A stretch of 64,000 bases of DNA from contig JAUPFP010000011.1 in assembly GCA_036925085.1 (NCBI GenBank), positions 2,383,797-2,447,796 on the forward strand, read 5' to 3'. This document shows, piece by piece, positions 5,933 through 54,100 of the stretch (position 1 is its first letter; each line of letters starts with the position of its first letter). The notes below the pieces were generated by a model, which saw only the letters and a program-made list of their open reading frames with translations, made no database searches and was not told where the DNA came from. Source of the DNA: Brachycybe producta (taxonomy: Eukaryota; Arthropoda; Diplopoda; Playtdesmida; Andrognathidae). The position numbers and the translations under genes were made by a program.

Positions 5933-6385
5933 CTAGTGGGGTAACCTCGTCATAAATGATGGGAGCCAAATTCTAGTTTAATTTTGCCACTAAAATTACT
6001 TAACTATTTTAGGCAAATGTTTTTAGGTCCAATGTCTTTTTAGGTCAAATGGTTTAGGGCAAATGTCTTTTTAGGTTACATGGTTTTAGGTAAAATAGCC
6101 CTTTAGGTCAAATTGTTTTAGGGTAAATGTTCCTTTAGGGTAAATAGTTTTAGGGTAAATGTTCATTTAAGGTAAATGTTTTAGGGCAAATGTTTTTTTA
6201 ATGTAAATGGTTTTAGGGCAAACTGTATTAGGCATGGATCTGGAGAGTGCAACATAAAGTTGACCATGAGAAAAAAGCGGTTCATTTAAATTTAAGTAAA
6301 TAAATTCCGATGTGCTTAAACGTTTTGTCCTTGTTTGTACAACGTTACATACAGACAGACTTAGGGTTAGTATATACAGTATATA
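5933..6385 (-). mobile_element. Helitron copy H1 with short TTTAGGG minisatellite
   Basis: On the minus strand the element ends in a degenerate hairpin, a short spacer and CTAG (5933-5936), with host A at 5932 on the plus strand (T in element orientation). The interior has about 230 bp of irregular TTTAGG(G/T)(C/T)AAATG repeats, then the conserved block that encodes the end of a Helitron helicase (minus strand, ~6238-6290). The 5' end is a TA-rich stretch directly abutting H2, so its exact start is uncertain. Confidence 0.8.
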
Positions 6386-6765
6386 CTAGTGAGGTAACCT
6401 GTCATAAATGACGGGAGCAAAATTCACAGGCAATTGTGCGCATGCGCGTTGTTTGTTTCTTTTTTACTCCTTTCATTTCAATTTCAGTCACCCCTCCCCT
6501 TTTTTCCTCCCTCCACGTTTTTCTCTCTCTCCCCCTCTATTCTTTTCAACCATTTCCCCCCTCCCCAATTTAATATCATGAGGTTCTTGAATGGCAAGGG
6601 TGCAACATATAGTTGACATTGAGAAAAAAAAGCTGTTCATTTATTCAAATTTATATAAATTTCGACATGCTTCAATGGTTGTACAGCATTATCCCAGAAA
6701 GAAGAACGATAGATAGAAAGGCACTCACACAGAGACGCAGACCTGGGATATATATATTATATATA
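6386..6765 (-). mobile_element. Helitron copy H2, CT-rich subfamily
   Basis: The 3' terminus is CTAG at 6386-6389 next to an AACCTGTCATAAATGACGGG hairpin. The body has an NRF1-like palindrome (6437-6448), a CT-rich segment and a degenerate helicase relic (6575-6640). Its 5' end meets H3 head to head: a CAGACCTGGGATAT..ATATCCCAGGTCTG palindrome covers ~6740-6783. Confidence 0.8.
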
Positions 6766-7194
6766 TAATATCCCAGGTCTGTGTATCTGTCTGTCTGTCT
6801 TTCTGTCTGAAATAACGCTGTACAACCATTGAAGCACATCGGAATTTATATAAATTTAAATAAATGAAGAAATGAACAGCTTTTTTTTTTTTCTCAAGGT
6901 CAACTATATGTTGCACCCTTCCCATCCAAGAACCCCATGATATTAAATTGGAGAGGGGGAAAGGTTGGATGGAAAGTGTAGAAGGGGGGGGGCGAGAGAG
7001 AAACATGGAGGGAGGAAAAGTGGGAGGGGGTGACTGAAATTGAAATGAAATTAGTAAAAAAAAAAAAAAAAAAACGACGCGCATGCGCACACCAGAGAAA
7101 ATGAAAAACACATTTTCTATTTCAAATATAAAAAGGGGAGGGGATAATAGTAGCAAAATTAAACTACAGTTTATCACAGGCAATTAATTGTGCC

Positions 7195-7545
7195 ATAAAA
7201 ACAATTAACCCTAATGGAACATTTTCCTTAAAACCATTTACCATAATAGAACATTTGCCCTAAAACCACTTGCCCTAAAACCACTTGCCCTAAAACCACT
7301 TGCCCTAAAACCACTTGCCCTAAAACCATTTGCCCTAAACCTATTTGCCCTCAAGGAACACTTGCCCTAAAACCATTTACCCTAATAGCACATTTGCTCT
7401 AAAACAACTTGCCCTAAAACCACTTGCCCTTAAAAACATTTGCCCTAAAACTATTTGCCCTCAAAGAACACTTGCCCTAAAACCATTTGCCCTAAAACTA
7501 TTTGCCCTCAAGGAACATATGCCCTAAAACCAATTACTATATATT
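7195..7545 (-). repeat. Reverse-oriented TTTAGGG-type repeats, left arm of array
   Basis: Units of the form TTGCCCTAAAACCAC or ACTTGCCCTAAAACCATTT run here in the opposite orientation to the main array that follows, so the two arms fold back on each other. The turn-round point (TAGACTACTCATTAGGGGAA, ~7548-7567) is found inverted at 10020-10040. The open frame at 7345-7527 (an ALK-rich peptide) is only a reading of the repeat. Confidence 0.85.
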
Positions 7546-7569
7546 TAGACTACTCATTAGGGGAACATC

Positions 7570-8800
7570 TCTTTAGGGCAAATGTTTTTTTAGGGCAAAT
7601 GTCCCTTTAGGGCAAATGTTCCTTTAGGGCAAATGTCCCTTTAGGGCAAATGTCCCTTTAGGGCAAATGTCCCTTTAGGGCAAATGTCCCTTTAGGGCAA
7701 ATGTCCCTTTAGGGCAAATGTCCCTTTAGGGCAAATGTCCCTTTAGGGCAAATGTCCCTTTAGGGCAAATGTCCCTTTAGGGCAAATGTCCCTTTAGGGC
7801 AAATGTCCCTTTAGGGCAAATGTCCCTTTAGGGCAAATGTCCCTTTAGGGCAAATGTCCCTTTAGGGCAAATGTCCCTTTAGGGCAAATGTCCCTTTAGG
7901 GCAAATGTCCCTTTAGGGCAAATGTCTTTTTAGGGCAAATGTCTTTTTAGGGCAAATGTCTTTTTAGGGCAAATGTCTTTTTAGGGCAAATGTCTTTTTA
8001 GGGCAAATGTCTTTTTAGGGCAAATGTCTTTTTAGGGCAAATGTCTTTTTAGGGCAAATGTCTTTTTAGGGCAACTGTCTTTTTAGGGCAACTGTCTTTT
8101 TAGGGCAAATGTCTTTTTAGGGCAAATGTCTTTTTAGGGCAAATGTCTTTTTAGGGCAAATGTCCCTTTAGGGCAAATGTCCCTTTAGGGCAAATGTCCC
8201 TTTAGGGCAAATGTCCCTTTAGGGCAAATGTCCCTTTAGGGCAAATGTCTTTTTAGGGCAAATGTCTTTTTAGGGCAAATGTCTTTTTAGGGCAAATGTC
8301 TTTTTAGGGCAAATGTCTTTTTAGGGCAAATGTCTTTTTAGGGCAAATGTCTTTTTAGGGCAAATGTCTTTTTAGGGCAAATGTCTTTTTAGGGCAAATG
8401 TCTTTTTAGGGCAAATGTCTTTTTAGGGCAAATGTCTTTTTAGGGCAAATGTCTTTTTAGGGCAAATGTCTTTTTAGGGCAAATATCTTTTTAGGGCAAA
8501 TGTCTTTTTAGGGCAAATGTCTTTTTAGGGAAAATGTCTTTTTAGGGCAAATGTCTTTTTAGGGCAAATGTCTTTTTAGGGAAAATGTCTTTTTAGGGCA
8601 AATGTCTTTTTAGGGCAAATGTCTTTTTAGGGCAAATGTCCCTTTAGGGCAAATGTCCCTTTAGGGCAAATGTCCCTTTAGGGCAAATGTCCCTTTAGGG
8701 CAAATGTCCCTTTAGGGCAATATCTCCCTTTAGGGCAATATCTCCCTTTAGGGCAATATCTTCCTTTAGGGCAATATCTCCCTTTAGGGCAAATGTTTCT
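7570..8800 (+). repeat. 17-bp telomere-like minisatellite, about 70 copies
   Basis: The unit TTTAGGGCAAATGTCCC repeats with exact 17-base spacing. Two variants alternate in blocks: CCC-ending units (about 7575-7920, 8160-8245, 8640-8705) and CTT-ending units (about 7925-8160, 8250-8635). Single-unit variants include CAACTGTC (near 8080) and GAAAATG (near 8530 and 8580). The last few units are 18 bp with CAATATCT. Blocks of identical variants point to recent local amplification or conversion. The TTTAGGG core equals the plant-type telomere heptamer, but the 17-bp period shows this is not a telomere. Confidence 0.97.
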
Positions 8801-8917
8801 TTAGGGTAAATTGTTTTAGGACAAAAACTTAATCAGATTGAAATTTAAATGAACTGCTTTTTTCTCATGGTCTACTTTATGTTGCACTCTCCCGATCCAA
8901 GAATCCAAACAATAGTA

Positions 8918-9165
8918 TGGACAGGCAAGTAAAGACAGTAAAATACAGTCGTTTTCCCCGCCTTTTTATGAGGGCCAGCAACTTTTAATTATTTTGTTAT
9001 GTCGTCTGATGTCACATGCCCCGTTCTTTTCAATTTTGAATTGGTTGTTATTTGGTCTGACGTCACATGCCCCGTTCTTTTCAATTTCCAATTGGTTGAT
9101 ATTTGGTCTGACAGTCATAAAGGGGCGGGGCACACGACTGTATCTCCCTGTCTTCACATACCTGT
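8918..9165. mobile_element. Palindromic MITE (CAGGCAA family) nested in H3
   Basis: Long imperfect inverted repeats start ACAGGCAAGTAAAGACAG and end ACATACCTGT. The inner part has GC boxes (CCCCGCC), CAATTGGTT motifs and TCTGACGTCACATGCC. It splits the Helitron after the helicase stop region; flanking AACAATAGTA and AACAATATTA look like a diverged target duplication of about 10 bp. The same insertion is present in H4, so it predates the inverted duplication. Confidence 0.85.
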
Positions 9166-9285
9166 AACAATATTAAGGTGCTTATAAAAAACACAAGTGG
9201 TCAAGGCGAATTGCTTCATGACAACCGGACAGTCACACAAAAAGAAACTAGATGCTCCCGTCATTTATGACGGGTTACCCCACTA

Positions 9286-9403
<118 letters not shown>

Positions 9404-10704
9404 CTAGTGGGGTAACCCGTCATAAATGAAGGGAACACAATTCTAGTTTAATTTTGTTACTAAAATTATTTAAATATTTTATTCAAATACTTCATTATAA
9501 ATGACATTTTGTGTGAATTTCCTGTTGTCATGAAGTAATTTGCCTTGACTGCTTGCAATTTTTATAAGCACCTTCATATTGTTACAGGTATGTGAAGACA
9601 GAGATATACAGTCGTGTGCCCCGCCCTTTTATGACTGTCAGGCCAAATATCAACCAATTGAAAATTGAAAGGGACGGGGCATGTGACATCAGACCACATA
9701 ACAAAATAATTAAAAGTTGCTGGCCCTCATAAAGAAGGCGGGGAAAACGACTGTATCTTACTGTCTTTACTTGCCTGTCCTTACTATTGTTCGGGTTCTT
9801 GGATTGGGAGAGTGCAACATAAAGTTGACCATGAGAAAAAAGCGGTTCATTTTAAATAAATTTTAATCTGATTAATTTTTTGTCCTTGTTTATAGTGTTA
9901 CACACAAGACAGACAAAGCATTACCCTAAAACCATTTACCCTAAAGAAACATTTGCCCTAAAACCATTTACCCTAAAGGTACATTTGCCATAAAAAGGAC
10001 ATTTGCCCTAAAGGGATGTTCCCCTAATGAGTAGTCTAAGTTTACAGTAATTGATTTTAGGGCTAATGTTCCTTTAGGGTAAATGGTTTTAGGGCAAATG
10101 TTCCTTGAGGATAAATGGTTTTAGGGTAAATGGTTTTAGGGCAAATGGTTTTAGGGCAAATGGTTTTAGGGCAAATGTTCTATTAGGGTAAATGGTTTAT
10201 GGTAAATGGTTTTAGGTCAAGTGTTCCTTTAGGGCGAATGGTTTTAGGGCAAATGTTCTATTAGGGTTAATTGTTTTTATGGCATGGATCGGGAGAGTGC
10301 AACATAATGTTGACATAATTGCTGGGTACAATTGCCTGTGATAAACTGTAGTTTAATTTTGCTACTATTACCCCCTCCCCTTTATATATTTGAAAGAGAT
10401 GTGCGAGTCTGTGAGAGTGAGATGTGAGAGTGTGTGTCTCTACTGTGCGCATGCGCGTCGTGAGTTTCTTTTTTTTACTCCTTTCATTTCAATTTCAGTC
10501 ACCCTTCCCACTTTTCTCTCTTCCCCCTTCTACACTTTCCAACCTTTTCCCCACAATTTACTATCATGGGGTTCTTGGATTGGGAGAGTGCAACCTATAG
10601 TTGACCTTCAGAAAAAAAAGCGGTTCATTTATTTTTTTAAATTTATATAAATTACGATGTGCTTCAAGGTTTTTGTTTTTAATTGTTTGTACAACGTTAC
10701 TGAC
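9404..10704 (-). mobile_element. Helitron copy H4, inverted partner of H3
   Basis: CTAG at 9404-9407 and an imperfect ACCCGTCATAAATGAAGGG hairpin mark the minus-strand 3' end. In mirror order it carries the parts seen in H3: the nested MITE (9584-9780), a helicase relic (~9795-9845), a short TTTAGGG segment (9915-10270) containing the same turn-round point, and then the CT-rich subfamily part with an NRF1-like site (10446-10457) and a second helicase relic (~10570-10625). The repeat block here is about 0.35 kb against about 1.6 kb in H3. The ends after ~10690 are uncertain. Confidence 0.75.
9584..9780. mobile_element. Palindromic MITE nested in H4
   Basis: Inverted ACAGGTATGTGAAGACAG and CTGTCTTTACTTGCCTGT ends enclose GC-box and CAATTG motifs. 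It sits at the same Helitron position as the MITE in H3, and the flanking ATTGTT / ACTATTGTT duplicates match, which marks both as one ancestral insertion. Confidence 0.85.
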
Positions 10705-11340
10705 CGAAAGAATACACCAAAAAATACACGAAATAAAATGAAAATGATATATTTTAAATTAATTTCGTTTTTTTATTTATTTCGTAATTAAATTTCGTTA
10801 ATGGTTTGCGTTCTGCCAAAACGAAAAAAATTAAAATAAAACAGAAAAAATCACATTTTTGGCTACAATTACTAAAACCAGAAATCCCGACGGCGACAAC
10901 AAGGGTTGGAAATGGTAATAACAGCAAATAAATAAAAAGTAACAATAAACAATTAAATATTATAACCTACCTTTAACCTAACATATGCTGCTGTTTGTTG
11001 GGCCAATTTAATACTTTCCTCGAGATTACATGTACTAATTACTTCAAAATATACCATTGTTCGTTTGAAGTGGGAAAAAATGGCTGCTTTTTTGACTCAA
11101 AATGTCAACAAACACGCATGCGTGACTTTTTCGTGGTAACGAAATATAAGAAAACTTTCGTCACGAAAAAGAGAAAAAATATCGTAACGACACTTGTAAA
11201 ATTAGAATGAAAATACGAAATAATTTTAAATATATCGTATTTTTAATGTATTTCGTATTTTCTCACATTTCGTTTTACTGTGCGCAAAGCATCTAATAAT
11301 TGAAATTGAAATAATTGAAATACTAGTTAATATATTATAT
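10705..11340. other. AT-rich DNA with recurring ACGAAA/TTTCGT words
   Basis: ACGAAAT/ATTTCGT words recur throughout and are partly inverted (10725-10795 versus 11205-11275), hinting at a degraded inverted-repeat element. No protein similarity is seen in the short frames at 10754-10945 and 10995-11210. Confidence 0.4.
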
Positions 11341-11455
11341 TTAAGTATTAACTTAATATTTTCAGATTATTAACTGAATAAACTGAATTCGACAAATTGT
11401 TTATTTGCCCTTCACAGGGTTCCGTAGAACACGTTTATTATTTAAATTATCAGGT
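11341..11455 (-). repeat. Dispersed repeat R4, copy 1
   Basis: It shares CAGATTATTAACTGAATAAA, TTGTTTATTTGCCCTTCACA and ACACGTTTATTATTTAAAT with 31726-31850 and, in part, 61953-62043 (both in the opposite orientation). A TTTGCCCTTCACAGGG box is the most constant part. Nature unknown. Confidence 0.75.
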
Positions 11456-11642: not shown

Positions 11643-12130
11643 CTATTGGGGTAACCCGTCATAAATGACGGGAGCAAAATTCACAGGCTATTGTGCCCAG
11701 CAATAGAATTTCTATTCCTTCGCCTTTTTATGCCGTCAGACCAAGTAACAAACCCAATTAGAAATTGATGACATTCATAAAAGGGCGGAGCAAAAGAAAT
11801 TCTAATGCTGGGCACAATTGCCTGTGATAAACTGTAGTTTAATTTTGCTACTCTTATCCCCTCCCCTTTTTATATTTGAAAAAGAAAATGAGTTTTTCAT
11901 TTTCTCTGGTGTGCGCATGCGCGTCGTTTGTTCCTTTTTTACTCCTTTCATTATAATTTCAGTCACCCCCTCCCACTTCCCCCCTCCAAGTTTCTCTCTC
12001 CCCCTCTACACTTTCCAACCTTTTCCCCTTTCCAATTTAATATCATGGGGTTCTTGGATGGGAAAAAAAAAAGCAGTTCATTTATTCAAATTTATATAAC
12101 ACACGCACACAGACCTGGCATAATATATAT
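11643..12130 (-). mobile_element. Helitron copy, CT-rich subfamily, with nested MITE
   Basis: The 3' end has an intact CCCGTCATAAATGACGGG hairpin but CTAG has decayed to CTAT (11643-11646). Within it lie the nested MITE (11683-11825), the block ending CCCCTCCCCTTTTTATATTTG, an NRF1-like site (11912-11923), a CT-rich stretch and a helicase relic shortened by a deletion (12045-12075). A TA-rich tract marks its 5' side. Confidence 0.85.
11683..11825. mobile_element. Short palindromic MITE (CAGGCAATT family)
   Basis: A 143-bp near-palindrome runs from ACAGGCTATTGTGCCCAGCA to TGCTGGGCACAATTGCCTGT, with CATAAAAGGGCGGAGCAAAA in the interior. It matches copies at 32187-32328 and 40938-41079 at the same Helitron position, so it was carried along with the Helitron. 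Confidence 0.88.
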
Positions 12131-15100
12131 ATAAATAATTATACTACAATCACTTTATCTCAGATATAGCAGAAAGATATCAGAAATAATAGCTAATAGG
12201 AATAAAATTGCTTGGCAAATTAAGGATGTGATAATTTCTACACCAAATTTTAGCTTTCTTTTTTCTTTTTTTTTCTTTCTATTCATTTTCGGCAGAGGAA
12301 AGGGTAAGTGACCCTCACCATTCAGGAGAGAGAAAAAAGTTTAAAAAAAATAAATTACGACCACAGTCGACGAAAGCTGGTGCACACGTTAACTAAATGA
12401 GCATGAACAGAGTGGTATATCAAACCACAACCGGACAAACACCATTAGGGCCATAAATTCGTTGACATTTACAAAGCGTATTTTGATATATAGTTAACGT
12501 GGGGGGGCCACACCAAAGTTACTCTTGTGCTAATAACTTTAAAAATGCTAGGGCTATATATATTCTACCAGCAAGAAAGCAGCTGGAAATACCAAGCTCG
12601 ACCATTTTCATGTTTGTGTTTGTGTGTGTGTGTGGGGAGGGGGAGGAGGGGTGTCACTTGTCAAAATATTATATCTAGGTACATACTGCAATGAAAACCA
12701 CGACTTTTGTGTCCAAATTGATATAGTAAATTTTATATATAAAGACGTCATAAAAACATGTTTAAAATTGGCATGGCTGGTTGCTAGCTTATTCAAACAT
12801 TTCAACAAATCGATCTCCTAGTAACCTATACTATGCTATGTAGGCCTATGTATATGCATCTGTCATCTATAGGCCTATAAACACACACACAGTATGTGTT
12901 CTTTTGAACATCAAGAAAAAATGACCATCAAATAAAAAAAAACTAGGCCTATACACGAAGGCTACACAGTGCAGACACCATCATTCCTCATATTCAGGAA
13001 GTTCTAGAAACAGTCACTAATGGTTGGATCTTGTTTTCAAAAACATCATTCAGAATCCAGCTTTACAACATAGATCTAACAAAAATAGTTTTACCATATC
13101 TGTATTTATCATATTATAGTTATTCTGGTTCATATAGCAGAGGCAGCTGCAATGGAAAAATTGTCTCAAGACTTTTTTTTTTAAACTGATTTTTATTATT
13201 AAAACGGGCATGCAAGGTAAACTTTTGTTCTGATGTTTAGAGTTTTGATCACTTTGTGTCCTTTAGGGACTTGGAACAATTTCTGTGCAAGACTCAAGGT
13301 TTTTGTAAATTGTGTATTAACATCCATGTAACCAGTTAAGATAATATAAAGAGTTTTATTTTAACTAGTGTGTCGTATGTGTCAAGTTATTTTTCTTTTC
13401 CGAGGAAAGTTTCATCACTATCCTTTTAAATATGAATTTCCGATCCCAAGAACAGTATACAAAAAAAAACTCCCTGGATTTTCTTACCGAGGTCCAGGCA
13501 TGTGTCACACTATCATATAACTGCGTGGAAAGTCCCACGTGGCTGGCTGCCACCAATTTGCCAAATATCTATTTTTCATCACATGGCTTGGGCACAGCAC
13601 AGCTACATGATTCACATCTTCCACAACCATAACGTTTTTGTATGAAGTTTGGTGGATCAGATTACTCATATCATCAACATTAATTTGTTACTCGCATTTT
13701 TTTGTTTCTCTCTTTCCAAACAACCATCAACAATAAGAACAACAACAACCCACTCAATTTCTCGATTGATGAACTTCACAAAAAATACATACAGTAAAAC
13801 AGATCAGTTCCATATGATATTCAATACAAACAAAACGAAAACAACAACACAAACAAAAACTATAAAGAGCCACCAAAGATACGCTTAAATGTTAATGCTG
13901 TATTATGGAAGCACATACTCAAGACATTATTTCAGTTTTCTCATCACAATAGACAACTTTATGAGTATAGAATTACAAATTGGATATAAGAGAAACATTT
14001 TTTTTCTCCAAATAAAAGCAATTCAAAATAATTGCAATCTCCAAAAAAAAAAGCCTATTAAAAATATACATCGAAGTGCCCAGTATAAGCAGGTCCCTAA
14101 ATGCACTTGAAAACACAATAAACATAAATAAAACTTCATTTGTCACGTAAAAAAGCTTAGAAGCAAGAGAGAGCCAAATAAAAAAGCCATATAATGATGT
14201 TAAAAGTTCGTTTATGTCACATGCATGATGGATTAATTATTAAGGTTCTGGAGAAGTATCGAGAAAGCTATTATTATAACCAACAATAATAAAAAAATAA
14301 CTAGATTTTGTAATATTTTCAGTCAGGGTTCTAGAGTTTAAAAGCCAAAAAAAGGACATCCCAATAGAAATGACATGGCCTACATGCAGGGTGTCTATAA
14401 AGTTCTGTCCAATTTGTTGGCATTCGAAATTTGAACAGGACTTTGTAGAAACCGTGTCTAGGCAACGGAAACAACGATTCTTATTGCTTTTAATTTGGTT
14501 GAAAATTTGTAAAATTAAATTTAACATAAAAAGAGATTAAACATGTTTTTAAAATTAGAAATTAGAAATTCAAGAGTAGGTTTTTTTATACTGTAGGCTT
14601 GTGTTATGTTACAGCAACATTTGTCAAGATATAAAAGGTAAAACTAATTATTGGTAATGTGTATAAATAATAAAAAAATTGTCGACTTTTAACATCTTTA
14701 AAAAGGTATTTTTTTTACTAAGAAATGACTAAGTAATTAGGAAATTATAATGCTGTAATTCAACCTTATAATTAATTAATAGCCATCTTTTTAGCCAAAA
14801 GCTACAACTCTCAGCTGCTTACACATCTTCATTTCTACATTCGAATTTAACTGCAATTACGACTGTTTTTCTTCTCAATTTTATTGCAGTACATGTATTT
14901 TCGCTGAAAACTAAAATAGGCCTGCTGTTATTTTATATGGATCGATATATGCTGTTCAGAATTTATCAAACGAGAAGTTTAGGTTTAGGTTTGGATTAGT
15001 TTTTTTTATTTCGAAGCTTCAACATATTATTACCGTTGAGTGATTAAAACTGAATTTTAGCATGGAAAAAAAGTAATCTTTGGAAACACGGGGAAAAATT

Positions 15101-16180: not shown

Positions 16181-16189
16181 GATAAACCG

Positions 16190-23429: not shown

Positions 23430-23780
23430 CTAGTGGGGTAACTCGTCATAAATGACGGGAGCAAAATTTACAGGCAATTGTGCGCATGCGCGTCGTTTTT
23501 TTCCTTTTTTTCCTCCTTTCATTTCAATTTCAGTCACCCCCTCCCACTTTTCTCTCTCTCTCGCTCTCCCCTTCTACACTTTCCCCTCTCCCCCTCCTAC
23601 TTTTCACTCTCCCCCCCTTCTGCACTTTCCAAAGGAAGAGTTCAGCATATAGTTGACCTTGAGAAGAAAAAAAAAAACGGTTCATTTATTCAAATTTATA
23701 TAAATTCCGACGTGCTTCAATGGTTTTGTACAGTTACTCCACACACACACACAGACCTGGGATATTATATATATAATAAT
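23430..23780 (-). mobile_element. Helitron copy, CT-rich subfamily
   Basis: CTAG at 23430-23433, a CTCGTCATAAATGACGGG hairpin, an NRF1-like site at 23481-23492, a CT-rich part duplicated internally (23540-23635) and a GACCTGGGATATTATATATA 5' border. The helicase relic is partly deleted. Confidence 0.9.
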
Positions 23781-32146: not shown

Positions 32147-32527
32147 ACAGTGAGGTAACCCGTCATAAATGACGGGAGCGAAATTCACAGACAATTGTGC
32201 CTAGCATTAGAATTTCTTTTCCTCCGCCCTTTTATGACATCAGACCAAGTAACAAACCAAATAGAAATTGATGACGTTCATAAAAGGGCTGAGCAAAAGA
32301 AATTCTAATGCTGGGTACAATTGCCTGTGATAAACTGTAGTTTAATTTTGCTACTATTATCCCCTCCCCTTTTTATATTTGAAAGAGAAAATGAGCTTTT
32401 CATTTTCTCTGGTGTGCGCATGCGCGTCGTTTGTTCCTTTTTTTACTCCTTTCATTTCAATGTCAGTTTCCCCTCCCCTTTTTCCCCCTCCCACTTTTCT
32501 CTCTCTCTCCCCCTCTACACTTTCCAA

Positions 32528-36421: not shown

Positions 36422-36765
36422 CTAGTGGGGTAACCCGTCATAAATGACGGGAGCAAAATTCAGAGGCAATTGTGCGCATGCGCGTCGTTTTTTTTTACTC
36501 CTTTCATTTCAATTTCAGTCACCCCCTCCCACTTTTCTCTCTCTCTCTCCCCTTCTACACTTTCCAAACTTTTCCCCTCACCCCCTCCCATCTTTCTCTC
36601 TCCCCCCCTTCTACACTTTCCAAAGGAAAAGTTCAACATATAGTTGACCTTGAGAAAAAAAAACGGTTCATTTATTCAAATTTATATAAATTCCGACATG
36701 CTTCAATGGTTTTTGTTACTCCACACACACAAACAGACCTGGGATATTATATATATATAATAATT
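36422..36765 (-). mobile_element. Helitron copy, CT-rich subfamily
   Basis: Intact 3' end: CTAG at 36422-36425 with host A before it and a perfect CCCGTCATAAATGACGGG hairpin. NRF1-like site 36473-36484; CT-rich part duplicated; helicase relic partly deleted; border GACCTGGGATATTATATATA. Very similar to the copy at 23430. Confidence 0.92.
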
Positions 36766-40289: not shown

Positions 40290-40544
40290 TGCTCATATTG
40301 CTAGGAAGCCCCGCCCCAAAGAAGAGGCGACGCCATATCAAAACGTCACAAGATTAAGGTGTTTTTTATTTCTTTATGTTTTTCCGTATTTCACACACAC
40401 TGAAAACAACGGTTTTGTGGTTGACTTGCGGTTAATTGTTTTTTTTAATGTGTTTATTGTTTTTAATGTGTTAGTTGTTTGATATGTGAATTAAACAAAA
40501 CAACACATGTTATAATAAAATATAATATCGAATAAAATATTATA
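40290..40544. other. Short non-coding gap
   Basis: A GCCCCGCCCC patch at 40309 precedes T-rich DNA; no feature assigned. Confidence 0.3.
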
Positions 40545-41119
40545 TATATAATATCCCAGATCTGTGTATGTGTGCGTGTGTGTGGAGTAACACTGCACAA
40601 AACCCTTGAAGCACGTCAGAATTTATATAAATTTAAATAAATGAAGAAATGAACAGCTTTTTTTTTCTCAAGGTCAACTATATGTTGCACCCTTCCCATC
40701 CAAGAACCCCATGATATTAAATTGGAGAGGGGAAAAGGTTGGAAAGTGTAGTAGGGGGAGAGAGAAAAAAAATAGAGGGGGAAAAAGTGGGAGGGGGTGA
40801 CTGAAATTGAAATGAAAGGAGTAAAAAGAAAGAACAAATGACGCGCATGCGCACACCAGAGAAAATGAAAAGCTCATTTTCTCTTTCAAATGTAAAAAAG
40901 GAGAGGGGATAATAGCAAAATTATACTAGAATTTATTACAGGCAACTGTGCCCAGCATTAGAATTTCTTTTGCTCCGCCCTTTTATTAACGTCATCAATT
41001 TTTAATTGGTTTGTTACTTGGTCTGATGTCATAAAAGGGCGGAGGAAAAGAAATTCTAATGCTGGGCACAATTGCCTGTGAATTTGGCTCCCATCATTTA
41101 TGATGGGTTACCCCACTAG
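40545..41119 (+). mobile_element. Most complete Helitron of the CT-rich subfamily
   Basis: Reading forward: TA-rich 5' border and CCCAGATCTGTGTATG start, helicase relic CTCAAGGTCAACTATATGTT (40666-40720), GGAGAGGGGAAAAGG purine-rich stretch, NRF1-like site (40842-40853), block AATGAAAAGCTCATTTTCTC, nested MITE (40938-41079), then CCCATCATTTATGATGGG hairpin (with paired C/T changes) and CTAG (41116-41119) before host T. The hairpin arms have changed together, keeping the stem. Confidence 0.92.
40938..41079. mobile_element. Short palindromic MITE nested in Helitron
   Basis: Inverted ends ACAGGCAACTGTGCCCAGCA and TGCTGGGCACAATTGCCTGT. It splits the sequence AGAATTTGGCTCCC of the simple Helitron, with GAATTT repeated on both sides as what is left of the target duplication. 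Confidence 0.9.
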
Positions 41120-41121
41120 TA

Positions 41122-42147: not shown

Positions 42148-42430
42148 CTAGTGGGGCAACCCGTCGCAAATGAGGGCAGCCGAATTCCAGTTTAATTTTG
42201 CTACTAAAATTATTTAACTAATTTAATTCAAATACTTGATAAGCACCTTACTATTGTTTGGGTTCTTGGATCGGGAGAGCACAACATAAAATTGACCATG
42301 AGAAAAAAAAAGCGGTTCATTTAAATTTAAATATATTAGGGCGTGCTTAAACGTTTTTGTCCTTGTTTGTACAGCATTAGAGACAGACAGGCAGACAGAC
42401 AAACAGAAAGACAAAGCTTAATATATATAT
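42148..42430 (-). mobile_element. Short Helitron copy (basic subfamily)
   Basis: CTAG at 42148-42151 with host A before it; the hairpin has diverged on both sides (CCCGTCGCAAATGAGGG) and is weakened. Compact layout: hairpin, AATTTTGCTACTAAAATTAT, helicase relic, TTTAAATTTAAA, ACGTTTTTGTCC TTGTTTGTAC and a GACAGACAGACAAACAG 5' region next to AATATATATA. It is one of two short, otherwise uninterrupted copies. Confidence 0.92.
42223..42321 (-). pseudogene. C-terminal relic of Helitron PIF1-like helicase
   Basis: The last ~32 codons read NEPLFFSHGQFYVVLSRSKN, then PNNSKVLIKYLN and a stop. SHGQ-x-YVA-x-SR is conserved motif VI of PIF1-type helicases as found at the end of Helitron Rep/helicase proteins. 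The remaining helicase and the Rep domain are absent; upstream codons are part of the element's 5' region. The phrase recurs with damage at ~6245, ~8870, ~9810 and ~53960, tying all these elements to one autonomous parent. Confidence 0.85.
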
Positions 42431-43481
42431 AAATTAATTAATATTATTATATATTGTATAATGCATGTATAACAAAAAATGTTAATAGAAAATGTTAGTT
42501 GTGTTATATGTTAATAAAAATATCGTAATAAATTATTGTTGTAATACATCATAATAATTTAATAAATATTCTGTAATGAAAAAAAAATCAATAGAAAACG
42601 TTTGACGTTTTTTTCGCAACTTTAAAATATTTCAAAACACTGATTTTGAACGTACATAACATTGACTGCAATCTGAGAATCTTGTGACGTCACAGAGCTG
42701 TTCAGGAAGGGCCTTTCCTATTGGCTAAACATGAGCCTACCCTTACCATACTCTGCAAACCTTGGTTAGGTTTGGCATTTGTTCAAATTGGCGCTCGTTA
42801 AGTTGCAGCCTCAAGTACAGAATTCCCGAAGTTCTCACATTTTCTTTAACCTATTATGCATGTCCATGTGTCATAAAATGGAAAAAAACGTCAGAGGATT
42901 CGGGGATTCTTTATTCGAGACAACTTAACATAAACACTTCAAGAATTATTGGTTTAATTTTCCGTCGTTAAAAGTTTAGTGGTTAATTTCTCTGCCAAAT
43001 TTGTAGTTTCTGCACATTTTGCAGAAGAATTCTTGGGTTTTTTTTTCATCTTGAAATTAACATTTCTATCTTCTAGCCTCACTCCGTTTGATACACACAT
43101 CCACCACAACTCTTGGCCTACATACTGTATACTGTACATTCAATGGAATAATAACAGGAAAAACATTAACTGGATTAACACACCCTAACGTATAGCGTGA
43201 TTCCACCACCATAAACACATTATAAACGCATAGAAATGCATTAACACTCCACAGCTTGTTATAGGTGTTTTATGATGCAAACTCACATTATCCTTAAAAA
43301 GGGTTACTTTTAAGCATGGTAGAGGCTAAAGATGTTTTATTTTACCCAAGAGTGTTATAAAGTATCATCTCTTTAAGAGGAATTTTTAAGAGCCTTTTAA
43401 AAGTTTGCTAGCTTCTTTAAAATTATTCAAATTTCTCAGAAGATTATCTACTGGTAGGACCTACTTTAAATGATAAATAAT

Positions 43482-43486: not shown

Positions 43487-43540
<54 letters not shown>

Positions 43541-45653: not shown

Positions 45654-45659
45654 TTAGGT

Positions 45660-46280
45660 TTTTCCATTGACATTTCATGAAAAACTATTTTCTTCTTTTT
45701 CAAACTTTCATTCAAATTTTATTTTTTGAAGTATGTTTTTATGAAAAACAAATTTTCTTAAAACCGCGGGTGTGGTGTAAGAGACCTCCTATAGAACATA
45801 ATATTCCCTGCAGTGGCGCCATCCGAGGAGACAAAAACAAAATAAAAATCTATTCAGCCATCATTTATGCATACACAAAATAATTCAAGCCAAGTTTTTT
45901 TTTTATAATGAAACACTGTTCAGAGTTCAGTTAAATTTCAAATGTTAAGTTTTCCTCTTGAAATTAGTCCATTTAGTAGGTCTAACACTTCAAACTGTTG
46001 AGATTCAAAACAATGATTATCCCCCCCCCCTTTAACTTTTCAAGTGTTAAAAAAACAACACAAATTGGTTCAAAAGTTGAGATACATAGCTTGCACTCGC
46101 ATTATTAATATCATTATGCAAGAAGTTAAAACTGAAACAAGCTTAAGAATACAAGTTTCAAACATTTTTTTCCCTTAAATTTCAAATAAAATAACTGGGT
46201 TTAAGTTTTACAGTATGGTTTTAACTGAAAACACGATCCACATACCGGTTAATGCGAATGCAATGTTAAAATGTCTGAGA
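45660..46280. other. Non-coding DNA
   Basis: A C-run at 46021-46030 and A/T-rich DNA; nothing recognised. Confidence 0.3.
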
Positions 46281-46284
46281 AATA

Positions 46285-46411
46285 TAATTCAGAAAGAGAG
46301 GAAGAGAGAAAGATAAGAGCGAGAGTAAGAGAGAAAGAGAAAGTAAGTGAAAGAGAGAAAGAAAGAGTAAAAGAAAGTTAGAATAAAAGACAGAAAGATA
46401 AAAGTGAGAGA

Positions 46412-46449
<38 letters not shown>

Positions 46450-46813
46450 AGCGTGAGAGTGAGAAAGAGAGCAACTGTAAGAGAGAGAAAGAGAGAAAAG
46501 AATGAGAGGGAGAGAGAGAGCAAGTGTAAGAGAAAGAGAGAGAGCAAGTGTGAGAGAGAGGGAGAGAGAGAGCAAGTGTAAGAGAGAGAGAGAGAGAGAA
46601 AGAGAGAAAAGAGTGAGAGAGAAAGAGAGAAAAGAGTGAGAGAGAAAGAGAGAAAAGAGTGGGAGAGAGAGCAAGTGTAAGAGAGCGAGAGAGAAAGAGA
46701 GAAAAGAGTGAGAGAGAAAGAGAGAAAAGAGTGGGAGAGAGAGCAAGTGTAAGAGAGCGAGAGAGAAAGAGAGAAAAGAGTGAGAGAGAGAAACGAGTGG
46801 GAGAGAGAGCAAG

Positions 46814-46861
<48 letters not shown>

Positions 46862-47447
46862 GAGTGAGAGAGAAAGATAGAAAAGAGTGAGAGAGGGAGA
46901 GAACAAGTGTAAGAGAGAGAGAGAGAGAGAGAGAGAGCAAGTGTAAGAGAGAGAGAGAGAGAGAGCAAGTGTGAGAGAGGGAGAGAGAGAGAGAAAGATA
47001 GAAAAGAGTAAGAGAGAAAAAGAGTGGGAGAGAGAGCGAGCAAGTATGAGAGAGAGAGAGAAAAGAGTGAGAGAGAGCAAGTGTGAGAGAGGGAGAGAGA
47101 GAGAGAAAGATAGAAAAGAGTAAGAGAGAAAAAGAGTGGGAGAGAGAGCGAGCAAGTATGAGAGAGAGAGAGAAAAGAGTGAGAGAGAAAGAGAGAAAAG
47201 AGTGAGAGTGAGAGAGAGAGCAAGTGTAAGAGAGAAAGAGAAAAGAGTGAGAGAGAGGGAGAGAGAAAGCAAGTGTAAGAGAGAGAAAGGGAGAGAGAGA
47301 GCAAGTGTGAGAGAGAGAGAGAGAAAGCAAGTGTAAGAGAGAGAGAGGGAAAGATAAAGCAAGTGTAAGAGAGAGAAAGGGAGAGAGAGAGCAAGTGTAA
47401 GAGAGAGAGAGAGAGAGAGCAAGTGTAAGAGAGAGAGAGAGAGCAAG

Positions 47448-47497
<50 letters not shown>

Positions 47498-47610
47498 AAG
47501 AGTGAGAGAGGGAGAGAGAAAGAGTGAGAGAAAGAGAAAAAAAGAGAAAGTGTAAAAGAAAGTTAGAATAAAAGATAGAAAGATGAGAGCGAGAGAGAAA
47601 GAGACAGGAA
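46285..47610 (+). repeat. 1.3-kb GA-rich array with higher-order units
   Basis: The plus strand is almost pure purine: GA runs broken by GCAAGTGTAAGAGAG and AAAAGAGTGAGAG words. Longer blocks repeat, for example GAAAAGAGTGGGAGAGAGAG near 46651, 46726 and 46790 and a ~120-bp block near 46970 and 47088. The three long minus-strand frames (up to 448 residues, Ser/Leu-rich) are repeat readings in all three frames and not genes. Confidence 0.97.
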
Positions 47611-48403
47611 AAGCTACAATATAATCATATTCCATAGTGAAAACTAGGTGGCAATTCTGCAGGCATTAATGAATGCATCATAAGCTGCAGTCTTACTCGT
47701 TCCTTATTCCATTTGCACACTAAATCGTATATAATTGCATCCTTTATTTGCATGAAAAAAGAGAGAAGATCTCTTACTTTCATTCTAACAATGTTAAGGA
47801 TCCACTGAAACATCAGAACATAAAAAACCTCCAAAGACTCTTTAAAGCGAAGTAAAAAAAAAAAGGTCAATGGATAAAAAACCCACATGGGACTTAAGTA
47901 GAATATAACTTGAACGGATCCAGCTAACATTTTTTTTTGCTACACAGCTGTTTCTTAAATTACGATTTCTCATGAACTTCCAAGGAGAAGAGAAAAAAAA
48001 ACCATTACAATTACAGTCAATGTTAGATTTGGGAACAATAATCTTTATTGTCACTGAAAGTGAATTCTCAGATAATTTTTGGTTTATCTCATTACATGAC
48101 ATGAAAAAAATATGAAACTTCCACCACACTCTCCCCACCCATACTTTTATTTCAAATATGAAATATGTTTTACTTTTATGATGAGAGTTTGGATTTTGTC
48201 CTTTATATTTGGCTCAAAAAACACTATCATTAAAAATTAAGTGGTTGATAAGCACTAGTTTTGGCACATTAAGCACATGGTTGCGCTGATCTAGTGCTGC
48301 GCCAAAATAAACACGCTAGCAAAATTGAATAAGCGCCAAACTGAATAACCACCAAAACCCTAGGTTCACTAAAACTCGCAAAAAATAATTATTTAGCCTT
48401 AAA
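47611..48403. other. Non-coding DNA
   Basis: The 101- and 98-residue minus frames (47625-48138) lack motifs and have ordinary AT-rich composition. No assignment. Confidence 0.35.
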
Positions 48404-48765: not shown

Positions 48766-48860
48766 CGGCAAATGCAGCCTGCGCTGGTCGTTATGGCACT
48801 GGTTTTATTTTTTCAAAAAAACTTTTTTTTTTTGTTTTTAAATTTTTGAAAAAAAATTTT
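48765..48860 (-). repeat. Dispersed fragment shared with 1.8-1.9 kb
   Basis: GAGGCGGCAAATGCAGCCTG, then CTGGTCGTTATGGCACTGG and poly-T/A are the reverse of 1800-1900. Confidence 0.7.
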
Positions 48861-49569
48861 TTTTTAATTTTTTTTAACATCATTGATTGGTAAATTCAAA
48901 TGGATTTATAATGTAATTATAATGTAATGTAATTATAATGTAAAGTTTAGTTAGATAAATTTATTATACTGTAGACGAGTAAATCTTCTAAAACTTAAAT
49001 ACATTAAAAATATTAAGAATTATAATAGAGGAACATAGAAACTAGATAATGCAATTTTTCATATTTTCATGTCAATCAATATAAACATTTTAAGACAATT
49101 TACGAAGGCTAACAATGAAGTGAAAAACAATACACAAAACTATCACTGAAATTCTCATTTTCATGTTGTTACTTTTCTAGTTTAATTATTCAATATTGTT
49201 ATTTTTCCACTTGACCTTTATTATATTATAGAATTTGCCAATACGTTCCTCAGTTAGCTTAGAAAGTCTTCCATTTATGGCACTTTATAATCCTCTGCAG
49301 CATACGCGCGAGCGTAAAAATCATTATTGTGTGGCATTACCTACTTTGCACTTTCCAAAATAGGCTTTGAAAGTGGTGGACAGATTTAATCCCTTTTTCA
49401 AAATATAGCAGCAATGACATGGCTAATCTGCCTTTCCAACACTGTGTCATCATAAATTAACAGTGGCCATCTTTAGGATCTTTTTGCTAACATCAGCCAA
49501 CTCAGAAGTTAAAACAGTGATGCCACATACACCCGAATGCCAATAATAATGTGAGCTTTTGATGTCAAC
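48861..49569. other. Non-coding AT-rich DNA
   Basis: TATAATGTAAT words repeat at 48907-48945; otherwise nothing. Confidence 0.3.
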
Positions 49570-50075
49570 CTTATAATTTTACAAACTTGATGATGTTATT
49601 TTCTGCAACTCGTTTGTTCTCCTGATCGCGCGGTGACCGCACGAAGAAGATTCGAGTTACAGAAATAGTCGGATGGCGATCAATTGCGATTATCCTTCTG
49701 TGAAGGGGTGTAATCTTTGCAGAAGAATGGTGGCCGACGCTCCTGGTCGACACTGATATACATCTTCCTTTGTCTGTTGCCAATTGAAGATGTTGTAGCT
49801 GCTCCAGGATCTGTATGTCTCCTTGCCTTATGGTGTCTCCGGCCTCTGTAGAGAAGTATTAGTTTCCAAACTCAAGTTTACAAGAATAAATTGGTAATCA
49901 AAGGTGCGTCCTCATGCCCATGATGTGGTACGGATAAGAATCGATGTAATACAAACAAAGTTGAGCAAAGAGAAGGACGATGAACAAAGAGGAAGATGGT
50001 CCTTTTATACCTTGGACCTGTATACACCTACGAGGTGTAACTAGGTCCAAGTGACAATGGTCCTAAGAGTATCAA
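49570..50075. other. GC-richer island of unknown nature
   Basis: This part has ordinary codon-like composition amid AT-rich DNA. A 70-residue minus frame (49571-49783) is unrecognised. A compact two-level hairpin lies at 50011-50051 (CTTGGACCT..AGGTCCAAG enclosing ACACCT..AGGTGT). A fragment of a retroelement or of a host exon is possible; neither can be shown. Confidence 0.35.
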
Positions 50076-50149
50076 TCTGCCACTAGAATATTAATTAGGA
50101 TGGGAGGGAGGGACAAACGTGAGTTGTTTACCCCCCTTGGCTATGGTTT

Positions 50150-50480
50150 TTACATGTTCTAGAACATTGTACAGAATTTCTGTAAGTTTGATTATTAACC
50201 ATTGTTTAAAATATGTAGTAAAGACTGTTTTAAGTTATAAAACCACAGGACAAGTCGTATATCTTAGAAAATTTAATGTTTCTGTTGTGTTCAGCATGTT
50301 AATTTCTCACATTAGTTAATAAAAGAGAAAAGTTCATTAGTGCATCTAAATTTGTTTTAATTTTTACTCTTTTAAGAAAAGGTTTTCTGCCTAGCAGAAA
50401 ATTTATACTATAAAAGGCTCTGTTTATTTTAAAATTTTTAGGCGAATCCATGAAGTGTAACTCGAGTTATGAAGAAATTA
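50150..50480 (+). mobile_element. Tc1-like element 3' part, second copy
   Basis: ACAGAATTTCTGTAA, GAAAAGTTCATTAGTGC, TCTAAA.. and TTAGGCGAATCCAT-AAGT follow the order of 33726-34050, the stretch downstream of the transposase remnant. The coding part is missing here. Confidence 0.8.
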
Positions 50481-51546
50481 GATCTTAGACCATTACTTTC
50501 CAGGACTGGCAACTGTGAAAATCTAGTGTTACATAGAGTGGTGACCATAGACTTAATAGGGTGGTGACGGCAGCGCCACTTAAGTTGGAAAAGGTTGTAC
50601 TATAGGTGTCCTATAAGGCTGTACAATAGTCGCCAGAAGGCACTGTTGTAGTTTCACCAGGTTATACGAGAAATCCATCAGCATTCAACACAATTACGAG
50701 TTGCTAGTCCCAGAAAGAAATGGTCTAAGGTTTAACCTCCAAAAAAAAAAATTGATATTTTTTGTACCAATTGAACCTTGTAAGCCTACTACACAAATCA
50801 CATTTTATGTTTTTCATATAAATGATACTTTGGATTTTTTAGAAGAAGAAAAAAACTATTTAGCGAAGTGTCACAACCTCCACCCATAATGGGACAGGCC
50901 AATACATAAATATGGTAATTGTTACAATATGTTGCCAGTTCACGTTATTTCAGAACAATAAATTTAACCTTAAAAAACCATAATCTGAGTCATAATTTTG
51001 TGCAAATATATGGTTTGTTTCCATCTATGAATATTTAATATGAGCCCAGTTTTTCATTCTAAGCATTGCACCCATTTTTTTTTCTTTTTAGTACTTAGAT
51101 GGCTAAGCTAAATCCATCTCCACAAAAAAAAGACATTATGCTTTCTCTTCATCTCCATTTGTTTCTTATTCTTGCCTACGTTCAATTTACATGTAATCTT
51201 TTCACTTGTTCTAGTGCATTTTGAAACTTATTGCATTTTCATAGATCTATTTAATGCTTTTTTTTAGCTTCTTAAGTTTTCAAAAAAAAAATTTAAATGA
51301 CAATTCGTCAAAACTGCTGCTTGTCTCATTTTCTGCCTTTTGTAATGTCTACTGGGCTTAAAAGAATCGTTTAGGAAGTGGAGCCGTCACCCTATTATAT
51401 TTTTTTTTTCAAATTATGAATCAAAACTAAAACTCTACAGTTACAACACACGCGGCCATTGCAATTGAAACTAAATAAGAATTACATGCTGAAGTATAAA
51501 ATCACGTTGACAATACAGTACTTACAGTGATGTATGTATTAACCCT
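50481..51546. other. Non-coding DNA
   Basis: No recognisable repeat or coding remnant; 50701-50889 is open but featureless. Confidence 0.3.
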
Positions 51547-51792
51547 TTAAAAAAACCATTACTCCCAAAAAAAATTTTGTTGAAATATCATCAAGACTTA
51601 CCCAACGATTGCTAAAATAATTTTTATAATTCAAAATAAGACATTAAAATGATAAAAAAAACTTAAAAATCAAGTGACTTTTATTAGTCGCCAAACAACG
51701 ACATTTTAAATTTCTTAAAAACGAAAGACACCTTCCCACAATTTAGTGGCAAATGTTGTCACCTCACATTTCCATAGTTCCTTGATGAAATA

Positions 51793-52360
51793 CGGGGTCC
51801 GGCAGTAGGTATTGACAGTTTTTATAGTGTGATTGTCAGCTTAGTAATTGAAACACAGAGATTAAAACGGAACATATTTATTCTATACATAATGCAGTTT
51901 TCAAATATGCTTATTTTTTAAAAAAATTATGTTAGACAAATGTGCTCCTTCTTGTCTTTCGGATTCTTGGAGCCTGCTGCGAAAAGATTGCATGACACGG
52001 TGCAATACATTTGGGCCGATCGCTCTAATTTCGTTGGTTATGTTGTTGCTCAACTCCTGTAATGTGTGGGGCCCGTCAACACACACTTTGGACTTCAGAT
52101 ATCCCCATAAGAAAAAAATCGCAGCAAGTCAAATCCGGAGATCTTGCCGGCCAATTAACATTACAATTACGAGATACTTATGCTTCCCGTTCGAATGAAC
52201 ACCGTAACACAAAAAATTCGTTGCTGCACAGGCCAAGAATTCATGGCTACTGAAACTGCATAACATATTAAATTTATTGCGCAATATACTGTCCCCCACT
52301 CAGTGTCTGTCTTCCCACCACAGCGCTCACAAATGCGTCAGTACCTATTGCCGGACCCTG
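51793..52360 (-). mobile_element. Mariner-like deletion derivative in M2
   Basis: Inverted ends CGGGGTCCGGCAGTAGGTAT and ATACCTATTGCCGGACCCTG-like (right end 52339-52360) are flanked by TA on both sides. It keeps a carboxy-terminal transposase piece on the minus strand and little else. Different TIRs from the 1.1-kb mariner, so another family. Confidence 0.93.
51901..52170 (-). pseudogene. Mariner transposase, C-terminal part, frameshifted
   Basis: The minus strand reads NWPARSPDLTCCDFF, then after one additional T in a T-run LWGYLKSKVCVDGPHTLQEL and SNNITNEIRAIGPNVLHRVM, finishing with RLQESERQEGAHLSN. WPxRSPDLxxxDFFLWGYLKSKV is the mariner signature around the third catalytic Asp. The frameshift lies near 52115-52122. 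The N-terminal and first catalytic parts are absent. Confidence 0.93.
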
Positions 52361-52739
52361 TACTTGTATTCCATAGTCATATTCAACTCAATACAACTTT
52401 CACATCAACTCGAGAGCCACGTAGGCAGGCGGAATAATTCCAATATGAAATGAAATCTATAGTACTTTGAAATGAATAGGAAATACATGTATTTGAATAG
52501 TGAATTAAAAGTAATGTGATGTGAAAAACACAGGCAAAATGCTTAAATATCGACATATCGATACTTTTCGAGTCTAGAAGTATACTTTCGTTCCGATTCA
52601 TATTGTTTGGTGGCGCATCTATCTGAAATTGCAAGTCTCTACCAAATACCAATTCATTTTGAAGTTTTTTTTTAATTAAGAAGGTCCTTTTAAAAAATGA
52701 ATAAGTAGAAATTTCTAGAGGTAATGGTCTCTTTAAAGG

Positions 52740-53261
52740 CCAAGAAAAAACTGGCAATATTAATGAAAAAATATTGTTGGAAATGTGTTAATGATTACAC
52801 AGACATGCCATTAGAACCAAAAAAATTATTTTCAATAACAAAGTGAGCAAGAAAAAGGGTATCCTCATTTGGGGACACTGGCTACATTGAACATTGTTAT
52901 ACTGATAACTTTTATTTGCTATTGTGCATTTTTTCAAAGCATGGCCTTTCCAAACAAAGCATAGCAGAACACTTCTTACATCCTCAATTTTTGTATGTCT
53001 ACACTTCACTAATTTTTTGTCGGCTTCAAAAAATTGAGGGCCATGGTGTGCATCTATGGCACCTAGACTGAAAATTGCAACTTATAGTACTAGTAGTTTG
53101 GTCTAAAAAACATTGTGCAAATGTTTGCAATTTTATAGCAATAATCTATGTGATGGATGCATGGCTCCCACACATACTGAAATGGGCCTCCATTCCAAGA
53201 TCTTTGGTGGGGGGCAACCTACCTACTGCTAAGGTTAAGTGCAGTGTGATACTCTATACAG
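52740..53261. other. Non-coding DNA
   Basis: Nothing recognised; frames at 52788-53009 and 53075-53299 have no motif. Confidence 0.3.
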
Positions 53262-53723
53262 CAGCGGTCGCCAACCTTTCGGACCTCACAAACCACTAAA
53301 TTCATAATTTGAAATCCAGCAGACCACTAATATAAATTTTTTAAAAAAAAAAAGATAAATACGTTTGTCAAATAATGATCAGAGAACTTCCATTTTATTA
53401 ATAGAAAATCTTTAAAGGTTGTTTAATTGTAACAAAATTAATAGTTAGTTTAATTATTACAAAATAATTGCAGCTTAGGGGAGAAGCGTGTGGTGGGGGA
53501 AGCTGAACGAAATGTAGCTCTCGCGTGCCGTATTTTACGAGAACTGTACTAGACTAGTACATTTCGTCAATTTAGTGCAATAGAAAGGCGAAAATTGTCA
53601 TTCAGAATATAAGAATATATTTTTATTTTATTATTAATAAAACAAAAAAAAAATGCAAATATTGTCCAGATTTTTCTGCGGACCACCAACAATTTCTCGC
53701 GGACCACCGGTTGGCGACCGTTG
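53262..53723. mobile_element. hAT-like non-autonomous element
   Basis: CAGCGGTCGCCAACCTTTCG at the left faces CCGGTTGGCGACCGTTG at the right; GGACC(T/A)C and GCAGACCACT / GCGGACCACC occur on both sides. CTCTATAC lies within three bases of the left end and CTCTACAT follows the right end, a plausible mutated 8-bp duplication. No transposase. Confidence 0.82.
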
Positions 53724-53837
53724 CTCTACATGATTTAAGATAAAATAAGTCCATTTAAATGATTACACAAAAGTAATATTTATAATTATTTAAAAACTAT
53801 GGATTTACATTATAAAAACTTACAATAATATCAAAAA

Positions 53838-54100
53838 CTAGTGGGGTAACCCGTCATAAATGACGGGAGCCAAATTCTAGTTTAATTTTGCTACAGAAAT
53901 TATTTAACTATTTTATTCAAATGCTTCATAAGCACCTTAATATTGTTTGGGTTCTTGGATTGGGAGAGCGCAACATAAAGTTTATCCATGAGAAAAAACC
54001 TGTTCATTTAAATTTAAAGAAATTCCGACGTACTTAAACGTTTTTGTCCTTGTTTGTACAGCGTTATACACAGAAAGACAGACAGATCTTAATATATATA
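53838..54100 (-). mobile_element. Short Helitron copy (basic subfamily)
   Basis: Perfect CTAG (53838-53841), host A before it and CCCGTCATAAATGACGGG hairpin. Then AATTCTAGTTTAATTTTGCT, TAAGCACCTTAATATTGTTT, helicase relic (53950-54005, one insertion), TTTAAATTTAAAG, ACGTTTTTGTCCTTGTTTGT and GACAGACAGATC next to TATATATA. Cleanest example of the basic architecture. Confidence 0.94.

Follow-up and report, generated by a model that had tools for sequence, protein, structure and literature searches.

What kind of element ends in a short palindrome followed by CTAG, and what guides it to its landing sites, are the questions raised by a 64,000-nt stretch of the genome of Brachycybe producta (contig JAUPFP010000011.1, positions 2,383,797–2,447,796; hereafter the window), in which such ends recur on both strands. 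We interpret the copies as a family of Helitrons (F1), mostly small non-autonomous derivatives of three types (a, b and c), which would be mobilized by a RepHel protein whose Rep part reads ATA in both donor and target; we place the probability of this reading at roughly 0.7. The initial annotation of the window had proposed a Helitron family. This identity is upheld by the hairpin-CTAG ends, by insertion between A and T (A^T) without duplication and by partner copies with Rep and a PIF1-type helicase, and the overall interpretation is supported in part. Helitrons, CTAG ends, A^T insertion, AT-rich 3' flanks and head-to-tail pairs are already known, as is the combination of a 5' TT with a 3' CTAG, in a proto-Helentron. 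What is new here is an ATA at a fixed distance (+7/+8) from the insertion point, matched by the element's own 5' end, together with an orientation bias among the junctions between copies.

Hairpin-CTAG ends and the copies that carry them

Eleven separate 3' ends were found in the window, where at least ten had been claimed; each consists of the hairpin CCCGTCAT-TT-ATGACGGG, a spacer of ∼8 nt and CTAG or a variant of it, next to a host T. They lie at 5933, 6386, 9404, 11643, 23430, 32147, 36422, 42148 and 53838 on the minus strand and at 9286 and 41119 on the plus strand. A search of both strands with the 18-mer hairpin (at most three mismatches) gave 18 matches at ten distinct places, compared with a mean of 0.01 in the shuffled window; the eleventh end, 42148, has four mismatches in its hairpin. 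The terminus is CTAG/T (the slash marks the element border) in nine of the 11 ends, the exceptions being 11643 (ATAG/T) and 32147 (CTG/T), and the spacer matches TTACCCCA exactly or nearly, with one extra base at 5933. The 18-nt palindrome stops 12 nt from the 3' end of CTAG, which is the position described for Helitrons, namely a 16–20-bp hairpin 10–15 bp ahead of the CTRR-3' end (PMC13286980; here and below, statements credited to papers refer to the parts of their text that were available). The predicted folding energy of the hairpin is −7.5 kcal/mol (z −5.2). Across the genome (295 Mb in 442 contigs), the hairpin with at most two mismatches gave 6,187 and 6,128 matches on the two strands, most hairpins being tallied on each strand because they are palindromic, compared with one and one for the reversed pattern. 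Exact GGGTTACCCCACTAGT occurs 5,015 times (control 0), and exact TTACCCCACTAG defines 5,937 3' ends.

The copies in the window are as follows.

5933..6385, minus strand: type a copy, with a decayed 5' end; it lies immediately downstream of the 6386 copy, in head-to-tail order
6386..6755, minus strand: longer copy with a type b 3' part; 5' border approximate, the 5' end meeting another copy head-to-head near 6725–6760
8822..9286, plus strand: 5'-truncated copy (border approximate) whose 3' end lies on a (TA)n tract
9404..9927, minus strand: copy with a decayed 5' end (border approximate); it faces the 9286 copy tail-to-tail, the (TA)n tract lying between them
11643..12133, minus strand: type b copy, ∼490 bp; 3' end ATAG/T
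23430..23776, minus strand: type c copy; 5' end TTATATATATAATATCCCAGG
32147..32176, minus strand: 3' end (hairpin, spacer, CTG) in a head-to-tail junction with another copy, whose 5' end (TATATATATATTAAGCC) abuts it directly
36422..36760, minus strand: type c copy, ∼339 bp
40541..41119, plus strand: type c copy, ∼579 bp
42148..42433, minus strand: short type a copy, ∼286 bp
53838..54102, minus strand: short type a copy, ∼265 bp; 5' end TTTATATATATTAAG..., a helicase-derived segment and the 3' hairpin-TTACCCCA-CTAG/T

The last two are those from which a basic form of ∼270 bp had been deduced, in agreement with the measured lengths. At 32147, the 5' end of the upstream copy was not found at the window locus.

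Landing site, 5' end and the ATA motif

Three short copies (L058, L060 and L069, the L numbers denoting individual loci) sit in a single host repeat family, in which empty sites were sought (40 of 2,106 candidates scored; 15 loci obtained and 12 aligned). The 12 aligned loci are uninserted paralogues, and ten of them have AAATTATTAAT. The junctions of L058 read AAGTTA/TTTTAAATATATATTAAG...CTAG/TTACTAAT, L060 occupies the same A^T in the opposite orientation, and at neither copy is any base duplicated with respect to the paralogous empty sites. The alignment of L069 with the empty site was not clean and was not counted, leaving two usable copies of the three tried. The landing site in this host repeat (L077–L088), AAATTA^TTAAT, has been hit by two copies in both orientations. 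In the genome, exact TTACCCCACTAG is followed by T in 5,848 of 5,937 cases and by another base in 89; loci L089–L108 were selected by a pattern that includes this T and are uninformative on the preference. On the 5' side, 18 of 22 short copies have a readable T-run-A start, two of them in tandem, and the remaining 16 solo copies are preceded by A (14) or G (2). The start of L058, misplaced automatically, is also preceded by A when read by hand. Insertion thus takes place at A^T without target duplication, as the initial annotation expected of a Helitron, and no sign of another transposon class was seen.

The copies are short, numerous, AT-rich and without coding capacity, as would be expected of a miniature inverted-repeat transposable element (MITE), or of a cut-and-paste element of another kind in which a palindrome happens to lie close to one terminus. 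However, the aligned copies show neither a terminal inverted repeat nor a target duplication, and the partner copies described below encode Rep and helicase, which contradicts a MITE; we give this explanation practically no credence. ATon elements (PMC3422177) were set aside as a comparison because they have terminal inverted repeats.

The 5' end was examined in an alignment of 19 copies (17 of 20 fetched from the genome and two from the window). Likeness starts at a T- or TA-rich 5' end, continues through TTAAG and a GTCTGTCTG stretch and ends at CTAG, and the flanks outside are unlike each other. The 5' terminus is TTTTATATATATTAAG or the variant TTATATATA; among the longer forms, type b has TTATATATATATTAAGCCAGG in its place and type c TTATATATATAATATCCCAGG. 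Where copies stand in tandem, nothing separates CTAG from TTTTATATATATTAAG or T(T)ATATA...TTAAG. The tandem junctions, together with the aligned flanks and the empty sites of paralogues, thus resolve a 5' end that is not the TC which the initial annotation had left open, and for this reason we call the family a Helitron variant rather than a canonical Helitron. The TA-rich tract noted earlier at the 5' borders is indeed TA-rich, but it is not just host sequence: at least in part it is the element's own end.

On the 3' side, an ATA starting at +7 or +8 past the cut follows 4,179 of the 5,848 insertions (71%), compared with 624 (11%) for the offset control at +27/+28. Counted from its first T, the element's own 5' end has ATA at +7 in each of the types a, b and c. 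Ordinary targeting of AT-rich or (TA)n DNA would make ATA a mere by-product, and the flanks are indeed 87% AT over their first 16 nt; Helraiser likewise prefers AT-rich 3' flanks (PMC4778049). Against this, the signal is position-specific. Among 69 flanks read base by base, 50 have ATA (18 at +7 and 32 at +8), whereas shuffling positions 2–16 of each flank gave a mean of 11.2 and a maximum of 25 in 5,000 rounds, and ATA remains in 48 of 67 flanks once (TA)n flanks are removed. Window A^T sites have it in 847 of 11,611 cases overall and in just 551 of 3,115 where at least 13 of 16 bases are A or T, and composition-matched flanks with the same ATA peak were not seen.

The first set of flanks came from 71 ends with 64 distinct flanks, of which 54 were kept; nine tandem-like ends and the duplicate L116 were left out. 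Three of these nine (L001, L028:6617 and L124) are probably not tandem, and two of the three have ATA. Also dropped before the 69 were reached were broken ends (L007, two of L056, and L064) and, in the second set, the tandem L103; the ends of L073 and L111 were missed, being too far from the search pattern. The window flank at 6386, which is itself a decayed junction and has no ATA, was kept. No report of an ATA at fixed distance was found in the literature searched, which covered text, so that a motif shown as a sequence logo in a figure may have escaped notice, and an exact-sequence search of the literature gave no match to any of three strings.

Rep and helicase partners

A profile search of the genome gave 19 Rep (PF14214) matches, the best of which (1.1e-59) belongs to a sibling family, F2. 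The window family's own Rep matches are short and weaker (4.4e-11 and 4.5e-7 at L042, 8.0e-7 at L043), the L042 frame with HAH scoring 3.2e-9. At L042 (contig C26) and L043 (contig C5), a helicase end (...SHGQL(Y/F)...) has the family's hairpin end 3' of it. The Pif1 2B domain of L042 scores 1.2e-19, and its helicase frame stops 45 nt ahead of the hairpin; the last four bases are GTAG, a variant, in L042 and CTAG in L043. Rep and helicase of L042 are relics: they are split over several frames and separated by a foreign transposase frame of the DDE type (PF13358, 1.3e-12). The coding content is that of a RepHel (HUH Rep and PIF1-like helicase), in broken frames: partners sharing the 3' end, as anticipated by the initial annotation, do exist, but in decayed form. 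A 590-bp stretch close to Rep has one orientation in L035 and L043 and the opposite one in L042.

F2 comprises L028, L029, L031, L034, L036 and part of L035, and has its own 3' end, the hairpin GCCCGTCGAAGACGGGC-TTTCTTT-CTAG. Its L028 copy has a Rep frame of 1,143 amino acids and a helicase frame of 459; the F2 domain scores are 2.4e-60 (Rep) and 9.7e-27 (PIF1), and the F2 Rep matches that of bat Helraiser (PDB 7lcc) with 1,147 bits over residues 157–1059 (903 residues). The long open Rep frame of L028 (G000:C17:3543200-3553100, open reading frame 565–3993) is very like that of bat Helraiser, and F2 may have been transferred horizontally. The very long open frames of L031 were rejected as a run of N. 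The Rep-bearing copy L035:2031-5298 (G000:C5:3150300-3160200) is chimeric, its 5' half being F1 and its 3' half and end F2, with the join inside Rep.

A Helentron or proto-Helentron would account for a 5' TT and a 3' CTAG, the termini of proto-Helentron-Pi of Phytophthora infestans (PMC4067079). However, the Rep signature (V/I)ExQxRG(S/L)(P/L)HxH has L in Helitrons and S in Helentrons (PMC4067079), and both L042 (IEFQKRGLQHAH) and F2 L028 (IEFQKRGLPHAH) carry what by sequence is the Helitron L. The L042 and L028 proteins gave no match to the C-terminal endonuclease of Helentrons, for which the 45 nt between the L042 helicase end and the hairpin would leave no space. The mark of Helentrons, a TT target or flanking Ts (PMC4067079), is likewise absent, the empty sites of L058 and L060 showing A^T. 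We therefore consider a Helentron most improbable and retain the Helitron assignment.

The initial annotation had noted that most sites keep codons of helicase motif VI, and a segment like the L042 helicase stretch is recognizable upstream of nine of the 11 window ends (copy assignment by hand). At 11643 just 34 nt of this segment were found, next to the 5' terminus; at 32147 no helicase segment could be assigned to that copy, and the segment of the 53838 copy carries an indel. In a short window copy, nucleotides 52–177 match the L042 helicase gene (87%) and the last 92 nt match the L042 3' end (85%), so that the helicase segment comes after the element's first ∼50 nt. In six longer copies it begins 239–459 bp before the 3' end. 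Rep-bearing copies with their upstream part fetched are L042+L051, L053+L035 (the chimera) and L043+L052; in the first two, a second, diverged stretch of helicase coding lies near the 5' end, before Rep (in L042+L051 it resembles that copy's own helicase at 81% over 108 nt, with E 9e-24). L043+L052 has none there, and its likeness to the other Rep-bearing copies begins further in. The relic thus belongs to the 5' half in nine of 11 window copies and two of three longer ones; it is neither a 3' flank nor, in the longer forms, confined to the last ∼200 bp, as had been supposed. We infer that a deletion derivative arose first, its 5' half being placed later ahead of a Rep gene.

Other repeats accompany the copies in the window. 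Regions 7000–9286 and 9404–11100 form inverted arms, 72–77% alike over ∼580–665 nt, which flank the (TA)n tract 9287–9403 and each hold one Helitron copy and a minisatellite. The 8822..9286 copy may belong to an inverted duplication as one of its arms, and the tail-to-tail pair 9286/9404 may represent a single palindromic duplication. Long inverted-repeat pairs lie at 62695–62899/63381–63585 (90% complementary) and 38402–38562/38779–38939 (83%); the resemblance of neighbouring stretches to the interiors of longer forms (family D18) suggests that they are linked to Helitrons. Tandem repeats include a minisatellite with 17-bp spacing, TTTAGGGTAAATGG-like (7415–8500), an AG-rich array of ∼1.4 kb (46266–47665) and a 34/35-bp minisatellite (55641–56618).

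Head-to-tail junctions and target choice

Head-to-tail junctions (a 3' end, 0–25 nt and TATATTAAG) gave 324 genome matches (control 0), ∼5% of the exact 3' ends, compared with 11 tail-to-tail and six head-to-head pairs. Because the three patterns differ in strictness, the ratio 324:11:6 is rough; chance accounts for part of the 324, L099 being one such match as judged from its sequence. Among 20 sampled exact 3' ends there was one true junction (L103), and the window has two, 6386/6385 (b before a) and 32147. Of 25 junctions typed, 22 were readable, the others being L056, L134 and the window junction; the upstream 3' end is type b in 19, type a in one (L043) and untyped in two. Because the automatic downstream label 'a' also took in type b variants (CCAAG...), the downstream ends were read by hand. 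A type b 3' end stands before a type a 5' end in eight of the 19 (L054, L055, L057, L137, L140, L142, L143 and L144), a share that is not a rate, the typed junctions having been partly chosen for a TTTTATA start.

The explanation by ordinary AT-rich targeting would take such pairs for rolling-circle dimers arising from bypassed termination, to which tandem arrays in bat and silkworm have been ascribed (PMC4067079). The mixed junctions (eight of the 22 readable, hand-read) are not copies of one element, however, and together with the positional specificity of ATA they make AT-rich targeting combined with dimers an unlikely explanation. Under the Helitron reading with a shared signal, Rep would nick at A^T and stay bound on the 3' side, where it would recognize ATA in donor 5' end and target alike; the freed CTAG-3'OH would then be joined to the target T. 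That Rep reads both ends alike is extrapolated from the order of steps in Helraiser (PMC4778049, PMC5876387). Insertion directly before an old copy is possible because the host A and the element's first T make up a target site, and a new copy would insert exactly there, in a single orientation, building head-to-tail arrays. The 5' end repeats the wider motif, which is directional and so fits the orientation bias of the junctions, and the shared ATA signal may explain why copies so often lie nose to tail. A rough estimate based on 13 motif-fitting sites per kb of the window suggests more insertions at 5' ends than would be expected from the motif by itself; a longer signal or some true dimers are therefore possible. 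Tentatively, and with somewhat less than an even chance of being right, we propose as one joint reading that targets are chosen by their likeness to the element's own 5' end, with Rep reading ATA ∼7 nt 3' of the A^T nick in both, that arrays arise mainly from insertion into earlier copies and not as rolling-circle concatemers, and that each copy, once in place, re-creates a directional target at its 5' border.

Besides the limits of the junction counts given above, several observations weigh against the main interpretation, a Helitron family whose Rep reads ATA in donor and target. The canonical 5' TC is missing, with TTTTATATATATTAAG or its variants in its place, and the empty sites fix the 5' start for the short copies but not for types b and c. 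Since the RepHel copies of F1 are broken, the source of mobility is deduced indirectly, and L043+L052, one of the three longer copies, shows no helicase piece before Rep. L043 also has type a upstream, with a type b 5' end 27 nt on. ATA at +7/+8 is a preference and not a rule, being absent from 29% of insertions; it is present in seven of the 11 window ends and in only four of six ends of F2.

The closest known system is Helraiser/Helibat1 of bat (PDB 7lcc), which shares the RepHel, the CTAG-3' end, A^T insertion, a preference for AT-rich 3' flanks, a palindrome close to the end (11 nt, compared with 12 nt here) and head-to-tail joining of right and left terminal sequences (RTS-LTS). It differs in its 5' TC (TTTT/TTAT here) and in that the RepHel of F1 is decayed; the available text on Helraiser names no fixed-distance ATA motif. 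Proto-Helentron-Pi resembles F1 in its 5' TT, its 3' CTAG and the lack of target duplication, but has the Helentron Rep signature (PMC4067079). Non-autonomous Hel-2 of Lepidoptera, compared by description only, has a 250-bp consensus, a 3' hairpin, CTAG and A/T flanks, but a 5' TC (PMC4344730). In head-to-tail Helitron pairs of maize and bat, CTAG is likewise joined straight to the next 5' end (PMC2267711). For one maize pair of unlike members, two orders were proposed, one of them being insertion at a host A plus the element's T, and that report sets the insertion reading beside the dimer reading, citing the bat work (PMC2267711); here, unlike in those pairs, there are hundreds of junction matches, and orientation counts and a target motif favour insertion.

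Helitron target choice beyond 'AT' and the origin of head-to-tail arrays are open questions, on which the ∼5,800 natural insertions of this one family provide a statistical handle. If resemblance to an element's 5' end does decide where it inserts, the rule may extend to other Helitrons, and the preference for AT-rich 3' flanks would be its blurred form.

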